Source: a virus
Direction: 5' to 3' (one strand)
DNA length: 37,839 bases
IMG/VR virus record: IMGVR_UViG_3300030098_006363
Coordinates: 1-37,839 of that record
Within the stretch, counting starts at the first letter, position 1; every line of letters starts with the position of its first letter. The translations under genes were made by a program, and so were the position numbers. Shown here piece after piece: positions 11,995-35,604 of this stretch. The notes below the pieces were generated by a model that searched no databases, was not told where the DNA came from, and was given only the letters and a program-made list of their open reading frames with translations.

Positions 11995-13922
11995 TACGCT
12001 GTAACCTCCATGTAAAGTCCACGAATGCTTACTGGCAAAGGAACTGTCTGTGTTATTTCAACTGCTGGATCAAGCGACCAGCCAAGCATAAAAAATTCGT
12101 AATCCCCATCTACGGCTGTAGGGGGAACACTAAAATCATCATCTACCTGTGTCAGGATTAGCTGATTGCCGGACAACGACATGGATTGTGTGGAAAAAAC
12201 ACTGGCTACAACCCTGCTAATGCGTTTTTTCAAGCCAGTTATTGCACCTACATTTCTCATCATAGCATCAATAGGCATGGTTTTTAACGTCATGGTAAAA
12301 TCCAGACCAATTTCTATATTCGTAACTGCTTCATCCGTTGTGATGACACCGGAACCGTTAGAAGTATACTGACCTAAATACTGGGCATTGGTATTTGTTG
12401 TGGTTTTAACAGTGGTGTTTGGCAAGTGTGCCGCGGTCCAGCTATTTGTTGAAGAAGCTGTAGACTGAATAACCGCATCCATTGTTACATCAAAGTCAAA
12501 CTCTTCGAGCCAGTGAACCGTTGAAGAATTAATTGTGCGTGTGCAATAGGCAAACAGTTTATTACCGCACTGGGTTACAGATTTGTAACTGCCGTTTGTA
12601 TTCCACTGAACCCAACCTGCAAGCTCTTCATTTCTTACCGAATGAAAAACCGCGAGAGTCCCATCTGTATTAACAAAAAAAGCATATTGTTCCGGCCTCT
12701 GCGTTGTTCCCATTAAAAGAGCGGAATCAATCGCATTATTTATCAAGTGATTGGAAAGAATAGACACGGCATTTGAGGTATACGCCTGTTGAGTGTCTTC
12801 CCAGACATACTCGCGAATAACTTTACCAGTAGACTGCATATACAGCGTTGCACCATCAAATTTTAGAGGTGTAACCGCCTGACTTGTTCCATACGGTGTC
12901 TGAGGTACAAAACTTATACTGTTTGGAGTTAAAGGCGATGTTGTAGATTGCGGAACATACAGTTCCCCTGCATTGGTAAATATCTGAAGATTTCGGGTAG
13001 ATACCAAATGACGGATTTCCGAAATATTATCTGCGGCTACCGTAACATCAATGCCAAAGTTATCGCTGGCATCACCAATATCAAAATTAAAAAAGGCATT
13101 TACCTTGGAAGAAACTATACCGTCAGGCCGATCCGTTGAACCTGCCATAAAAAGTCTCTGCGAATGGAATACTCCGCATCTGGGATGACCACGGACAGCA
13201 GAAAACGCCTGTTCATCCCATTCGGTGCTTGCTGATGTTCCCGATAAAGTTTCCCTGATATTAACGACTGCAACCGTTGCGGATGTAATGCTTGTCACCA
13301 GCATTTCTTTGCCATCATACCTAAAAATAGTTCCCACATGGTCAGACTCAAAAATGCTGACCGAACAAGTCAGATTTCTGCCAGTTCCACTTGTTGCACT
13401 CGGAGTCATGGTGACACTATCCGCAGTAAATTTAAAATAAGGCTGATATTTTGGATAACCCGCAGAATTTTCTTCAAACACAAAATCGGCACTGGTAAAG
13501 GTGGAAGCTCCGGTGCGGGTTAACTGTCTGGGCCAGAAATCTTTGTGGAACACAATAATAGTGTCTGCTGAATCTGTAATTGTAAGATCATTCAAATGTG
13601 CTGTTTGCCACGGCTGACTGGTAAGTGTCTGCAAAAGACTTCCACTGCTGTTGAAAATCAGCAGTTTTGTATTCTGAAACGCCAGAATATAATCCTGTCC
13701 TTCTGTATAACTGTATTCATGTAAAACCGTTGCTTCTGAAAGGTTTGCCCGATAAATAGAACCTGGTCTTCTTCTTGCGCCCCCTTGAGCATACAATGCA
13801 ACATTTCTTGCTGTCTGCGCTCCTTTTGCATATGCCTTCAAGTCTGACCGCATCCGCATTAAAGGATCTAATTCACCTGATGTAAAAGATGTCTGCACAT
13901 TTCTTAAATTGCTATCGACCAT
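11994..13922 (-). CDS. Tail tubular protein B (T7 gp12-like, tail nozzle)
   Basis: The 642-residue protein is beta-rich. Its N-terminus contains the family pattern SFTSGELDPLMRMRSDLKAYAKGAQTARN (given in part: residues about 11-39), then GGARRRPGSIY, both hallmarks of podovirus tail tubular protein B. Later segments (HSQRLFMAGS, around 236-245; SFVPQTPYGTSQ, around 316-327) also fit the family. It forms the tail nozzle below the adaptor ring. GGAG lies seven bases before the ATG, and the start immediately follows the stop of tail tubular A. Confidence 0.93.
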   Translation of the reverse strand: MVDSNLRNVQTSFTSGELDPLMRMRSDLKAYAKGAQTARNVALYAQGGARRRPGSIYRANLSEATVLHEYSYTEGQDYILAFQNTKLLIFNSSGSLLQTLTSQPWQTAHLNDLTITDSADTIIVFHKDFWPRQLTRTGASTFTSADFVFEENSAGYPKYQPYFKFTADSVTMTPSATSGTGRNLTCSVSIFESDHVGTIFRYDGKEMLVTSITSATVAVVNIRETLSGTSASTEWDEQAFSAVRGHPRCGVFHSQRLFMAGSTDRPDGIVSSKVNAFFNFDIGDASDNFGIDVTVAADNISEIRHLVSTRNLQIFTNAGELYVPQSTTSPLTPNSISFVPQTPYGTSQAVTPLKFDGATLYMQSTGKVIREYVWEDTQQAYTSNAVSILSNHLINNAIDSALLMGTTQRPEQYAFFVNTDGTLAVFHSVRNEELAGWVQWNTNGSYKSVTQCGNKLFAYCTRTINSSTVHWLEEFDFDVTMDAVIQSTASSTNSWTAAHLPNTTVKTTTNTNAQYLGQYTSNGSGVITTDEAVTNIEIGLDFTMTLKTMPIDAMMRNVGAITGLKKRISRVVASVFSTQSMSLSGNQLILTQVDDDFSVPPTAVDGDYEFFMLGWSLDPAVEITQTVPLPVSIRGLYMEVTA

Positions 13923-14504
13923 CTAGGATCTCCGTATATTAACTAGTGTCGAAGCTCTTAAATGCCTTGTTGTCTGTGAAGCAGAATCCGCATTCTTAGC
14001 CTGTACAAAAGCTCTTTCTGCTTTCAATGTAAAATGATCTGCAAGATCACCGCGCATTGCCAGAGAACCAGCAAATACAGAAGCCATTTCAAACGTAAAA
14101 GCTCTTGTAAAATAAGGAGGCCAGTAAATAACCTTGGGACGATAGGTATAATCCATAACAACCACATCGTCTTCGTGAGTGTTGCAATATACTTTGTCTT
14201 CATAACGATCAAACGTAATAGGATCGTCATTTACCGTTAGTGCATTTACAAGTAAAACAGGAGGTGAAGTCGGTATTTGATAAGCCGCTTCCCATCTGGC
14301 AATAGGTTCAGCAACTAAACGAGATAATTTTGACTGACCTGTGGCAAACCGCCATCTTGTTCTTGTTAAAGCCGCTTCCAGCATAGGCTCATAAAGATTA
14401 TTTGCCATATTTGCCGGATTGTCACCTTGAGCAAAACTAGAAATTTCAGCGGCTCCGATTAGATTTAACGCCCTCGAAGCAATTGTTACGTCAGTTAAAG
14501 CCAT
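13923..14504 (-). CDS. Tail tubular protein A (T7 gp11-like adaptor)
   Basis: This 193-residue protein matches the gp11-type adaptor family. The N-terminus ALTDVTIASRALNLIGAAEI is followed by NMANNLYEPMLEAALTRTRW (41-60, with the conserved LY-x-x-x-x-x-x-L-x-x-x-RW spacing). A central YCNTHEDDVVVMDYTYRP region and an aromatic-to-helical C-terminus complete it. It forms the dodecameric adaptor between portal and tail nozzle. A hairpin at 14530-14560 lies between this gene and the upstream capsid-associated gene. AAGG precedes the start. Confidence 0.93.
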   Translation of the reverse strand: MALTDVTIASRALNLIGAAEISSFAQGDNPANMANNLYEPMLEAALTRTRWRFATGQSKLSRLVAEPIARWEAAYQIPTSPPVLLVNALTVNDDPITFDRYEDKVYCNTHEDDVVVMDYTYRPKVIYWPPYFTRAFTFEMASVFAGSLAMRGDLADHFTLKAERAFVQAKNADSASQTTRHLRASTLVNIRRS

Positions 14505-32894: not shown

Positions 32895-33280
32895 CAAAAT
32901 TATCGATAGAGCTTTTTACTCTGGAAGAAATTCTAAAAGAAATAAATAATAATAAAATTATTGTTTCTGAAAAAACGCTTAAACAAATTTCACAAGAACT
33001 TGGCTTTAGAAAAGGTCGAACAAAAGTAAATGTTTATAATCGCAATCAGGTAAACCTAATTGTTGGAGAAATAATTTGCCAACGTTTTACAAACCAGGAC
33101 AGAGAAAACAAAACTCGACTTATAGAGTCAGGGGTTCAATCCGCAACCAAGAGTACGAAATCACTACGCGCACGACTAACAAAAGACTTGCACAGGCAGA
33201 GTGGGACGCTTTCAAAGAACAAGTCAAAAGCACAGGTCGTGTCGTTAAAGAGAAACACTGGACCTTTTCAGATGCAGTAA
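32891..33280 (+). CDS. Excisionase-like small DNA-binding protein
   Basis: The 129-residue reading frame starts by ATGA overlap with the preceding gene. Residues 8-70 (LFTLEEILKEINNNKIIVSE, LKQISQELGFRKGRTKVNVY, NRNQVNLIVGEIICQRF) look like an HTH_17/MerR-type Xis domain with wing. The Ser/Lys/Arg-rich tail overlaps the integrase gene by 205 bases in another frame. This long overlap, with a low-complexity tail, is common for Xis-like genes before integrases in alphaproteobacterial phages. It probably directs excision. Confidence 0.7.
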   Translation: MTKLSIELFTLEEILKEINNNKIIVSEKTLKQISQELGFRKGRTKVNVYNRNQVNLIVGEIICQRFTNQDRENKTRLIESGVQSATKSTKSLRARLTKDLHRQSGTLSKNKSKAQVVSLKRNTGPFQMQ

Positions 33281-34092
33281 ATCATTACGAGATGATTGAT
33301 AATCGCTCGAAAATGCAAATGAATTACGCAAAAAAAATAGAAAGTGTTATTGGTGATTTTTTACTAGAAACAATTAAACCTGGCACGATTAAAAGTCTTT
33401 GCAAAGAATTGTATCCCAAAAACAAAGCAAGTTCTTGGAACCGATCTGTCATAAGAGTTGCTTCAGCTATTATTAACTGCGCGGCAGAAGACGAACATTG
33501 TTCCCATATAAGAATATCTACTTTCAAAGAAGAAGAAGTGCCAAAAAAATTGCCTTCAGATAAAGCTGGAGAAATCCTTTTACAAAACACAGAAGGAATC
33601 AAACAGCTTTATATTGCTGTATTGCATTATCATGGCTTACGGCCTTCAGACGCTCTGTCGATTTCTTGGGATAACATTAATATGAAAGAGCAGACTTTTC
33701 AGGTTGTTATTCCAAAAGCAAAAAAGAACAAAGAAATAGTAATGGATCAGGATTTTTTTGTTTTACTGGCAAACGTTCCAAAAAAAAATCAAACTGGCAA
33801 ACTTTTTCCGTGGAAAAACCGAAGTAGTTTAACTTGGTTAAATGATCTGACAAAAAAACTTGGTGTTACTTTTGCCGCAAGGAAAGCAAGACATAAATTT
33901 GCAACTGATTTGGCCGCAGAAGGGGCATCTGAATTTGATCTCGTAAACTGCGGTTCTTGGACAAGTACAAGATCAACTAAAACATACGTTACCCTTCAAC
34001 CAGAAAGAGCAAAAGAAATGCTCAAAAGACGTAAAAATGCACAGATTGTGCAAAAAACACGGGTAAAAACACGGGAAGAAACAGGTAAGTAA
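33076..34092 (+). CDS. int: Tyrosine site-specific integrase
   Basis: The 338-residue enzyme should recombine attP with a host tRNA gene. TTG is used as start: GGAG lies seven bases before it and the N-terminus MPTFYKPGQRKQNSTYRVRG matches this integrase type. The SAM-like core-binding part is about 60-155. Catalytic residues in order are R189 (HGLRPSDAL), Lys214 or Lys216 (IPKAKK), R272-H273 (ARKARHKFATDLA; the usual first His of H-x-x-R appears as R269), W295 (GSW) and Y304 (TKTYVTL). The C-terminal tail is basic. ACACGGG arm-site repeats overlap its last codons. Confidence 0.93.
   Translation: MPTFYKPGQRKQNSTYRVRGSIRNQEYEITTRTTNKRLAQAEWDAFKEQVKSTGRVVKEKHWTFSDAVNHYEMIDNRSKMQMNYAKKIESVIGDFLLETIKPGTIKSLCKELYPKNKASSWNRSVIRVASAIINCAAEDEHCSHIRISTFKEEEVPKKLPSDKAGEILLQNTEGIKQLYIAVLHYHGLRPSDALSISWDNINMKEQTFQVVIPKAKKNKEIVMDQDFFVLLANVPKKNQTGKLFPWKNRSSLTWLNDLTKKLGVTFAARKARHKFATDLAAEGASEFDLVNCGSWTSTRSTKTYVTLQPERAKEMLKRRKNAQIVQKTRVKTREETGK
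34065..34083. repeat. 19-bp direct repeat, left attP arm
   Basis: AAAAACACGGGAAGAAACA, exact copy at 34288-34306. It overlaps the end of the integrase gene. Confidence 0.85.
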
Positions 34093-34116
34093 TTGTTATT
34101 AAACAATACTTGACCT

Positions 34117-34157
34117 CCTTAGCAGGGGAGCGCCTTCAGCCACTCGGCCAACTGCCC
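34117..34157 (-). other. tRNA-Ser(GCU) 5' half embedded in attP
   Basis: On the minus strand this begins GGGCAGTTGGCCGAGTGGCT and continues GAAGGCGCTCCCCTGCTAAGG. It has an acceptor 5' strand, T8-G9, the D arm GCC...GGC, then CTCCC and the anticodon loop CTGCTAA (anticodon GCT). It closely matches tRNA-Ser(GCU) 5' halves, for example the E. coli one, up to two bases past the loop, after which similarity stops. The rest of the tRNA is absent. After integration the host would supply the 3' half. Confidence 0.85.
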
Positions 34158-34165
34158 GCAAGTTT

Positions 34166-34194
34166 TGTATACTCTTCTAAATCCCAGAGAACAA
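34166..34194 (-). promoter_or_regulatory. Promoter aimed at the tRNA-Ser half
   Basis: TTGTTC (34194-34189), 17 bases, then TATACA (34171-34166) on the minus strand. The predicted transcript start lies about two bases before the first base of the tRNA half. The phage seems to carry a ready-made promoter for the tRNA gene it would rebuild. Confidence 0.7.
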
Positions 34195-34287
34195 GGGCTT
34201 TTGAGAGGTTTAATGTCATATATTATATATAAAAGCGAACCTTCCGCATACCCTGAACGTACCCTGAACATACCCTTCAAAGGCTCC

Positions 34288-34306
34288 AAAAACACGGGAA
34301 GAAACA
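34288..34306. repeat. 19-bp direct repeat, right attP arm
   Basis: Exact copy of 34065-34083. Confidence 0.85.
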
Positions 34307-34347
34307 CGGGAAAAGTTCATTTTTTGTTCTATTAAGGAGAAAAAACC

Positions 34348-35013
34348 ATGAAAGTATTAGTAGGCTGTGAAACAAGTGGAACAGTTCGAGATGCTTTTTT
34401 AAACAAAGGGCATGATGCATGGAGTTGTGATTTACTTCCAAGCGATATCCCTACTAATAGACATATACAAGATGATATACGCCATGTGCTTCAAAATGAA
34501 TCGTGGGACATGCTTATGGTGGCACATCCACCCTGTACCCGTCTATGCAACAGCGGTGTCAGGTGGCTTTCTAAAGCCCCTCCTAACAAAACCTTAAAAG
34601 ATATGTGGAAAGAGCTTGAAGAAGGGTGTGAATTATTCAGTTATGTTCTTAATGCTGATGTACCTCTTAGGGCAATTGAAAACCCTATCATGCATAAATA
34701 CGCAAAAGAACGTATTAAAAACTTTACTGAGCCTGAACAAAAAATCCAGCCCTGGCAGTTTGCTCAATCAGAACAGTCTGAAGATAACGTAACTAAAAAG
34801 ACATGTTTCTGGTTACGAGGTCTGCCTCCATTAATACCTACTGGCAAAGTTGACGGTTCAACTGCCAGAGATGAATGTCACAAAACTCCTCCAAGCAAAG
34901 ACCGATGGAAAATCCGAAGTAAATTTTTCAAAGGTGTTGCAGAAGCTATGGCAGAGCAATGGGGCAATATTGAATTAAATCAATTCCCACAACAAATATC
35001 TATGAGGTTTTAA
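34348..35013 (+). CDS. Short cytosine-methyltransferase-like protein
   Basis: The 221-residue protein resembles the catalytic half of C5 cytosine methyltransferases. MKVLVGCETSGTVRDAFLNK is a motif-I-like SAM site, WDMLMVAHPPCTRLCNSG holds the P-P-C catalytic Cys63, and RAIENPI corresponds to the E-N-V/P motif. WLRGLPPLIPTGKVDG follows. It is shorter than standard enzymes (over 300 residues) and has no visible target recognition domain. A methylating role, for example protection from host restriction, is therefore likely but not certain. AGGAG precedes the ATG. The last nine codons lie in the 28-bp repeat. Confidence 0.75.
   Translation: MKVLVGCETSGTVRDAFLNKGHDAWSCDLLPSDIPTNRHIQDDIRHVLQNESWDMLMVAHPPCTRLCNSGVRWLSKAPPNKTLKDMWKELEEGCELFSYVLNADVPLRAIENPIMHKYAKERIKNFTEPEQKIQPWQFAQSEQSEDNVTKKTCFWLRGLPPLIPTGKVDGSTARDECHKTPPSKDRWKIRSKFFKGVAEAMAEQWGNIELNQFPQQISMRF
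34986..35013. repeat. 28-bp direct repeat at gene end, copy 1
   Basis: Identical to 35577-35604. It encodes the C-terminal PQQISMRF-stop and contains TATGAGG, the ribosome site for the next gene. The repeats bracket the XF1762-like gene exactly. Confidence 0.92.
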
Positions 35014-35604
35014 ATGGGAATTTTAAGAATCCTAGATATAACTACCGAAGAAGCAAATCAATATGTAAAAAAATGGCATCGACATTGCGACCCAGTACCA
35101 AAAGTACAAGTTCGTTTTGCTGTAAAACTTGTAGAAATTAATATTCCTTTTAAAATTTTACGAGTTGTTGGCGTTGCTATAATTGGCAACCCATGTGGAA
35201 GACCTCATTCAAAAAACGTTATTGAAATCAGACGAATTGTTTTTAATCCAGAAATAAGTTTTGGACATATAAGAAGACATTATGACAATACTCTTCATAA
35301 TAAATCTCATCCAAGCAGAAGAATTCTACCAATTATAGTTCAAACAAAAGATATTTATCTTTGTTATGTTATTGAAGCACGAAAAGTGCCATCTGAATTT
35401 CTTAAAATTATTGAAAAATTAATAAAAATAAGATTTCCCAACATGCATACAATTTGGACATATGTGCATGATTACGAGAAAGCTATTTATATAGAACACG
35501 CTAATTATGATTGTGACCATAGATTTATCAGAAGAGGAATAGCAAAAAGAAGATATTCAAGACCTTTAACTAATCACCCACAACAAATATCTATGAGGTT
35601 TTAA
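35014..35604 (+). CDS. XF1762-like phage protein
   Basis: The 196-residue protein has the family pattern EANQYVKKWHRHCDPVPK (N-terminus), VGVAIIGNPCGRPHSKNVIE (about 52-71) and IRRIVFNPEI, as in XF1762-type proteins of phages and prophages. These are predicted to be GNAT-like or small-molecule enzymes; the true activity is not known. His-rich segments (HIRRHYDNTLHNKSHPSRR) follow. The start lies directly after the upstream stop with GAGG as ribosome site. The last nine codons match those of the upstream gene because both end in the 28-bp repeat. Confidence 0.7.
   Translation: MGILRILDITTEEANQYVKKWHRHCDPVPKVQVRFAVKLVEINIPFKILRVVGVAIIGNPCGRPHSKNVIEIRRIVFNPEISFGHIRRHYDNTLHNKSHPSRRILPIIVQTKDIYLCYVIEARKVPSEFLKIIEKLIKIRFPNMHTIWTYVHDYEKAIYIEHANYDCDHRFIRRGIAKRRYSRPLTNHPQQISMRF
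35577..35604. repeat. 28-bp direct repeat at gene end, copy 2
   Basis: Identical to 34986-35013; supplies the GAGG ribosome site for the gene at 35606. Confidence 0.92.

Follow-up and report, generated by a model that had tools for sequence, protein, structure and literature searches.

The window analysed here covers positions 1 to 37,839 (37,839 bases) of IMG/VR virus record IMGVR_UViG_3300030098_006363. It encodes podovirus-type structural proteins, a CI/LexA-like repressor, replication genes and a tyrosine integrase. The region at about 34054-34313 is very probably the attachment site (attP) of a podovirus-like phage that is temperate and infects marine Rhodospirillales. This phage would rebuild the host gene for the serine transfer RNA tRNA-Ser(GCU) with its own promoter and its own copy of the 5' half of the gene. 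At the sequence level, the half, its identity to the host gene and the adjacent integrase are present in the window, and hybrid genes and displaced halves are present in relatives.

In the proposed mechanism, the integrase would act on the host tRNA-Ser(GCU) gene, with recombination inside its anticodon loop. As the half present in attP is the 5' one, the host promoter and 5' half would be displaced to one prophage end, attL. At the other end, attR, the gene would be rebuilt from the phage 5' half and the host 3' half, and transcribed from a phage promoter ending 8 nucleotides before the tRNA. This promoter appears to derive from a host-type tRNA-Ser promoter that was captured by the phage. 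Decay of the prophage would leave the promoter and half at attR in place, kept under selection as part of the sole tRNA-Ser(GCU) gene detected, and the tRNA promoter of the host would then be of phage origin. In phage DNA that is not integrated, this promoter would point antisense into the 3' end of the integrase gene, int.

The candidate attP core matches a host tRNA gene

The core, the promoter elements and the integrase gene are located as follows.

34117..34157, minus strand: 5' half of tRNA-Ser(GCU), nucleotides 1-41, the attP core identity block; exact in three tRNA-Ser genes of metagenome-assembled genomes (MAGs), with a truncated Rfam tRNA match
34119..34125, minus strand: anticodon loop CTGCTAA, the likely 7-bp overlap (crossover) region; host identity stops 2 nucleotides past the loop, at 34117
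34166..34171, minus strand: -10 element TATACA, 8 nucleotides from the tRNA; identical in the G001 remnant described below
34189..34194, minus strand: -35 element TTGTTC, separated from the -10 element by 17 nucleotides; identical in the G001 remnant, and in a AAAAGCCCTTGTT context common to host G050
33076..34092, plus strand: tyrosine integrase gene, 3' end toward the attP core (PF00589, E=2.5e-13; phrog_1 integrase, E=6.5e-21)

The minus strand from 34157 to 34117 reads GGGCAGTTGGCCGAGTGGCTGAAGGCGCTCCCCTGCTAAGG and ends two bases beyond the anticodon loop. The Rfam tRNA model matches exactly this interval as a truncated piece covering model positions 1-39 of 71 (19.6 bits, E=0.048). ARAGORN detected no complete tRNA in the window, and attP holds the 5' half without a tRNA 3' half. 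A search of host genomes with the half, which the first-pass annotation had proposed, covered a collection of 84,980 species genomes. The exact 41-mer was found in three stretches, all from Rhodospirillales MAGs. In each it forms nucleotides 1-41 of an intact tRNA-Ser(GCU), and the match is therefore not due to chance. The 5' strand of the phage acceptor stem, GGGCAGT, is complementary to the 3' strand of these hosts, ACTGCCC, so a hybrid would be expected to fold as a normal tRNA. That annotation had also described a half reaching to the anticodon loop and a TTGTTC-17-TATACA promoter just before it, and both are located where it placed them.

The likely crossover region is supported by related phages and prophages, which diverge from host tRNA-Ser at the same position in the anticodon loop. 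A 7-bp anticodon loop with its stem fits the layout of tyrosine-integrase core sites (PMC8371274). The core lies 24 nucleotides beyond the int stop codon, outside the gene. A tyrosine recombinase gene adjoining the core is expected of a temperate phage that integrates into tRNA genes and belongs to the class carrying a 5' fragment. Close relatives of the window integrase were not found in the IMG/VR search, and an exact 38-nucleotide search of viral contigs gave no match. Among isolated phages, the only match to the window attachment region is a Salmonella record with tRNA-Ser.

Both junctions are preserved in related integrated elements

The genome G325 contains a 56-kb prophage on a single 3.74-Mb contig. 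At attL, a displaced half with the host promoter is located beside the integrase. At attR, 56 kb away, the tRNA-Ser is intact; its promoter and 5' half come from the phage and its 3' half from the host. The two copies of the half are identical (41/41), as are the preceding 18 nucleotides and the -35 element (6/6), and the spacers match at 11/17 positions. Beyond position -60 the two ends match at only 10-13%.

G060 contains a 2.25-kb remnant between a displaced half with one mutation and an intact gene. A phage contig, L073, is 88.4% identical to the attR side over 250 nucleotides and 87.5% identical to the attL side over 208 nucleotides. The sequence before the displaced half resembles, by eye, the promoter region of the uninterrupted relative G059. 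The intact gene is now preceded by phage upstream sequence, 44/50 identical to L073. Judged from these alignments, G060 is a full promoter replacement. A displaced 5' fragment upstream and a rebuilt intact gene downstream are present in both integrated relatives, and attL and attR can be mapped in an intact prophage (G325) and in a decayed element (G060). The hybrid gene foreseen by the first-pass annotation, with promoter and 5' half from the phage and 3' half from the host, is observed in G325, G060 and a third genome, G001.

A probable attR scar and an attL end from close kin of this phage

In G001, about 256 nucleotides upstream of tRNA-Ser are 75% identical to the phage attP arm. Both promoter hexamers and their 17-nucleotide spacing are identical to those of the phage. 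The homology extends to the Shine-Dalgarno sequence and first codons of the phage methylase gene.

34348..35013, plus strand: DNA methyltransferase-like gene, divergent from the tRNA promoter (phrog_757, E=3.7e-55)

The persistence of the start of this gene marks the G001 remnant as phage-derived. A C-terminal integrase fragment (about 60% amino acid identity) is located 1.7 kb upstream, with the order and orientation expected of a prophage. The relatives G002 and G003 have neither the arm homology nor the integrase and methylase traces. A 20-nucleotide arm of the GCU tRNA, searched with up to 2 mismatches, matches once in the G001 assembly. The region is best read as an attR scar, with a hybrid tRNA gene and a prophage that is mostly gone.

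Transfer in the opposite direction would make the G001 region ancestral host DNA that was acquired by the phage. The phage promoters do resemble the tRNA-Ser promoters of this host group, including the AAAAGCCCTTGTT common to G050, which indicates that some capture did occur. A host donor is nonetheless very unlikely at this locus, as the homology runs through the phage arm into the methylase start, the integrase fragment lies in prophage order, and G002 and G003 lack all of these features.

The other end is seen in G309. There the tRNA-Ser half breaks at CTGCTAAG and is followed directly by an integrase remnant whose protein is 59% identical to the window integrase. This arrangement is that of an attL end. 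For close kin of this phage only single ends were seen, attR in G001 and attL in G309.

Several minor features were noted around G001. A 342-residue open reading frame within the remnant has no Pfam match. A tandem second prophage was considered for G001 L011 16627-16662 and rejected, the match being too weak (E=0.03). The GGGTACATCAAGGGTACA repeats 3' of the rebuilt tRNA (G001, L002 7644-7668) are similar to repeats of GGGTATGTTCAGGGTACG located at 34247-34281 in the attP arm of the phage. These repeats are possibly sites for recombination proteins or part of another element.

The 5' half and a promoter-like signal recur across phage lineages

Two pattern scans of viral contigs, limited to the half, identified 20 contigs with a 5' half and no complete tRNA. 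A tyrosine integrase is located within about 1.6 kb in nearly all of them; in the exception, L079, the sequence is cut off by the contig end. Two layouts are observed, with the integrase either facing the core, as in this phage, or located upstream on the same strand. The tRNA-Ser(GCU) 5' half is shared by at least 14 further lineages of phages or prophages, among them the Rhizobium isolates RHph_TM3_3_3 and RHph_I1_23. The isolates have the same layout as this phage, with TTGATC-17-TATCAG before the half.

It is conceivable that the half is a leftover, or that it gives rise to a tRNA fragment acting during infection, such as a decoy or an anti-defence RNA, and is not an attachment site. With its own promoter, the half would be transcribed in the free phage. 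This explanation is extremely improbable, since nearly all carriers have the half beside an integrase and broken in the anticodon loop, prophages have a displaced copy at one end and a rebuilt one at the other, and no evidence of a toxin, defence or decoy role was found.

The integrases of the half-carriers fall into three tree groups. The clade of the window integrase (100/97) includes nine of them, and within it the window integrase groups with G325, the RHph isolates and other half-carriers. Confinement of 5'-half carriage to one integrase clade is ruled out by the presence of half-carriers in all three groups. L042 and L043 (G078, G079), whose integrases are sisters of the window integrase, adjoin the 3' half of another tRNA (GGTTCAATCCCAGCCGCGCCCACCA). 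The carried half can thus switch within a close group of integrases. A further viral contig, L076, likely includes the attR end of a provirus, since at 13690-13936 its intact tRNA-Ser(GCU) follows TTGTCA-17-TACATT and repeats of phage-like type.

The promoter signal was analysed across 15 dereplicated loci, namely the G309 attL and 14 viral contigs, of which this phage is one. At the expected position their -35/-10 score averages 2.99, compared to 0.31 in shuffled sequences (standard deviation 0.70); none of 500 shuffles reached it, and the score peaks at that position. Scored with a matrix derived from the tRNA-Ser promoters of related hosts, the promoter of this phage ranks in the top 1.45% of the positions sampled in its genome. 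Phage and host sequences upstream of tRNA-Ser match at 30/50 positions for this phage and G050, 28/50 for L092 and G595, and 29/50 for the RHph isolates and G002, each with p=0.003; these values are guides, as the shuffles ignore common promoter composition. The resemblance suggests that the phage promoters are captured host-type tRNA-Ser promoters.

Weighing the promoter and the integration model

A number of observations weigh against the model. The phage promoter is weak by the Escherichia coli consensus, with 7/12 matches, and falls under the promoter-scan cut-off. Taken alone, it gives p=0.086 against shuffles. Four other half-carriers (L072, L073, L081 and L084) have no recognisable -35/-10 pair; the L073 upstream sequence nevertheless matches the G060 attR, where it precedes the gene currently in use in that genome. 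In the G001 remnant, a tRNA half is no longer seen at attL. The remnant is only 75% identical to the phage, and the G309 relative 59% in protein. An integrated copy of this very phage was not found in the genomes searched.

The weak consensus match, the p value and the four carriers without a recognisable promoter would be expected if the half is attP but the hexamers are there by chance. The rebuilt gene would then be read through from a phage promoter further upstream, or be transcribed inefficiently. This is unlikely. Both hexamers and their spacing are unchanged in G001 although the arms have diverged, the G325 phage and host copies share the -35 and -10 elements amid unrelated flanks, and the group signal was not reproduced in any shuffle. 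Read-through is also disfavored, as the methylase gene is divergent from the tRNA, with a terminator-like hairpin between the two.

34235..34247, minus strand: weak terminator-like hairpin upstream of the tRNA promoter, GCGGA/TTCGC followed by a T/A-rich stretch

The G001 remnant has a similar hairpin followed by a T-run at the equivalent position. The hairpin may shield the tRNA promoter.

For this phage itself, we infer that it integrates at tRNA-Ser(GCU), with an active promoter and with arm repeats bound by the integrase. The first-pass annotation had gone further and proposed that the phage controls transcription of the tRNA. The phage does appear to supply the promoter; control is a more conjectural step. 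The phage promoter often resembles that of the host, a likeness that points to upkeep of an essential gene more than to its regulation. As a tentative and rather doubtful extension, a widespread set of alphaproteobacterial phages may, on integration, swap the promoter of tRNA-Ser(GCU), an essential gene present in one copy. Promoters that differ, as in G060, might then alter the strength or regulation of AGC/AGU decoding, and the viral promoter might become permanent after decay.

Relationship to known systems

Elements carrying a 5' half are already known and are uncommon. In the Islander set, 159 of 3919 islands carry a 5' tDNA fragment (PMC4383910), and in Sinorhizobium meliloti the 5' end is used by 9 of 88 elements (PMC11476347). 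The first-pass annotation had regarded 5' carriage as unusual. Its minority status holds, but it is not unique to this phage, given the other lineages described above and published cyanophages. As in this phage, the 5' part of an Islander element of this class rebuilds the gene, and a displaced 5' fragment marks the other end. Promoters do not enter that paper's account of the class (PMC4383910); here a promoter is identified on the element and appears to be kept after prophage decay.

In the T7-like cyanophages P-SSP7 and S-TIP37, attP matches the first half of tRNA-Leu, and integration was proven by polymerase chain reaction (PMC8776855). They differ from this phage in the tRNA, in the host phylum and in the integrase, which is located upstream of the half on the same strand. 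A promoter is mentioned in that paper only for a cloning construct. In P-SSP7 (L109 5830-5900), a perfect TATAAT is located 19 nucleotides upstream of the tRNA-Leu 5' half, and the promoter-plus-half arrangement may thus extend to cyanophages.

Archaeal integrases of the pTN3 type also use a tRNA 5' half as the host site, attB, and the rebuilt gene is transcribed from element DNA (PMC8371274). Their integrase gene is split, and the tRNA is transcribed from the integrase promoter. In this phage int is intact, is not split by the attachment site and lies on the opposite strand, and the tRNA has its own promoter. In mycobacteriophages with tRNA-dependent lysogeny, the phage likewise supplies an essential host tRNA that integration disrupts (PMC10865867). 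They do so with a core of about 10 bp and a complete phage tRNA gene of the disrupted isotype, whereas the window has no complete tRNA and a 41-nucleotide half that would rebuild the host gene. RHph_TM3_3_3 and RHph_I1_23 share with this phage the tRNA-Ser(GCU) 5' half, a promoter with a 17-nucleotide spacer, the integrase facing the core and the integrase clade. Their genomes are 43-54 kb, they infect other hosts, and their integrases are about 23% identical to that of the window.

Rebuilt bacterial tRNA genes are described as keeping the original host promoter with very few exceptions (as summarized in PMC8371274, citing Williams 2002). This phage appears to be a clear exception, as do its relatives. 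What the present analysis would add to the known class is the promoter on the element, its likeness to host promoters and its survival after prophage decay. The decayed prophages in G001 and G060 indicate that a host can keep a phage-derived promoter on what is apparently its only tRNA-Ser(GCU) gene. This would be a simple route for mobile elements to rewrite the regulatory DNA of essential RNA genes, and it is open to study in culturable hosts such as Rhizobium phaseoli.

Other features of the attachment region and the genome

The first-pass annotation had noted paired ACACGGG sites on each side of the core. Two pairs, with copies 12 nucleotides apart, are indeed present.

34057..34063, plus strand: ACACGGG repeat, candidate integrase arm site (repeat search)
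34069..34075, plus strand: ACACGGG repeat, candidate arm site, 12 nucleotides from the 34057 copy (repeat search)
34292..34298, plus strand: ACACGGG repeat, candidate arm site on the other side of the core (repeat search)
34304..34310, plus strand: ACACGGG repeat, candidate arm site, 12 nucleotides from the 34292 copy (repeat search)
34083..34116, minus strand: imperfect hairpin just past the core (repeat I3); fold of -13.8 kcal/mol for a 58-nucleotide piece

ACACGGG occurs 5 times in the 37.8 kb, compared to 1.57 expected, and 4 of the 5 copies form the two pairs flanking the core. They are plausible candidates for integrase arm sites. The repeats are not kept in the G001 remnant. The imperfect hairpin would be located in any transcript that runs from the tRNA promoter antisense into int. 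Inspected by eye, phages of the same layout do not consistently have a consensus terminator between the core and the integrase.

Immediately after the methyltransferase-like gene, 35014-35604 encodes a Mom-like DNA modification protein (phrog_1384, E=2e-7). The contig ends, 1-208 and 37629-37836, match each other at 93% over 208 nucleotides, as if the genome were circular or terminally redundant and had been assembled from two variants.
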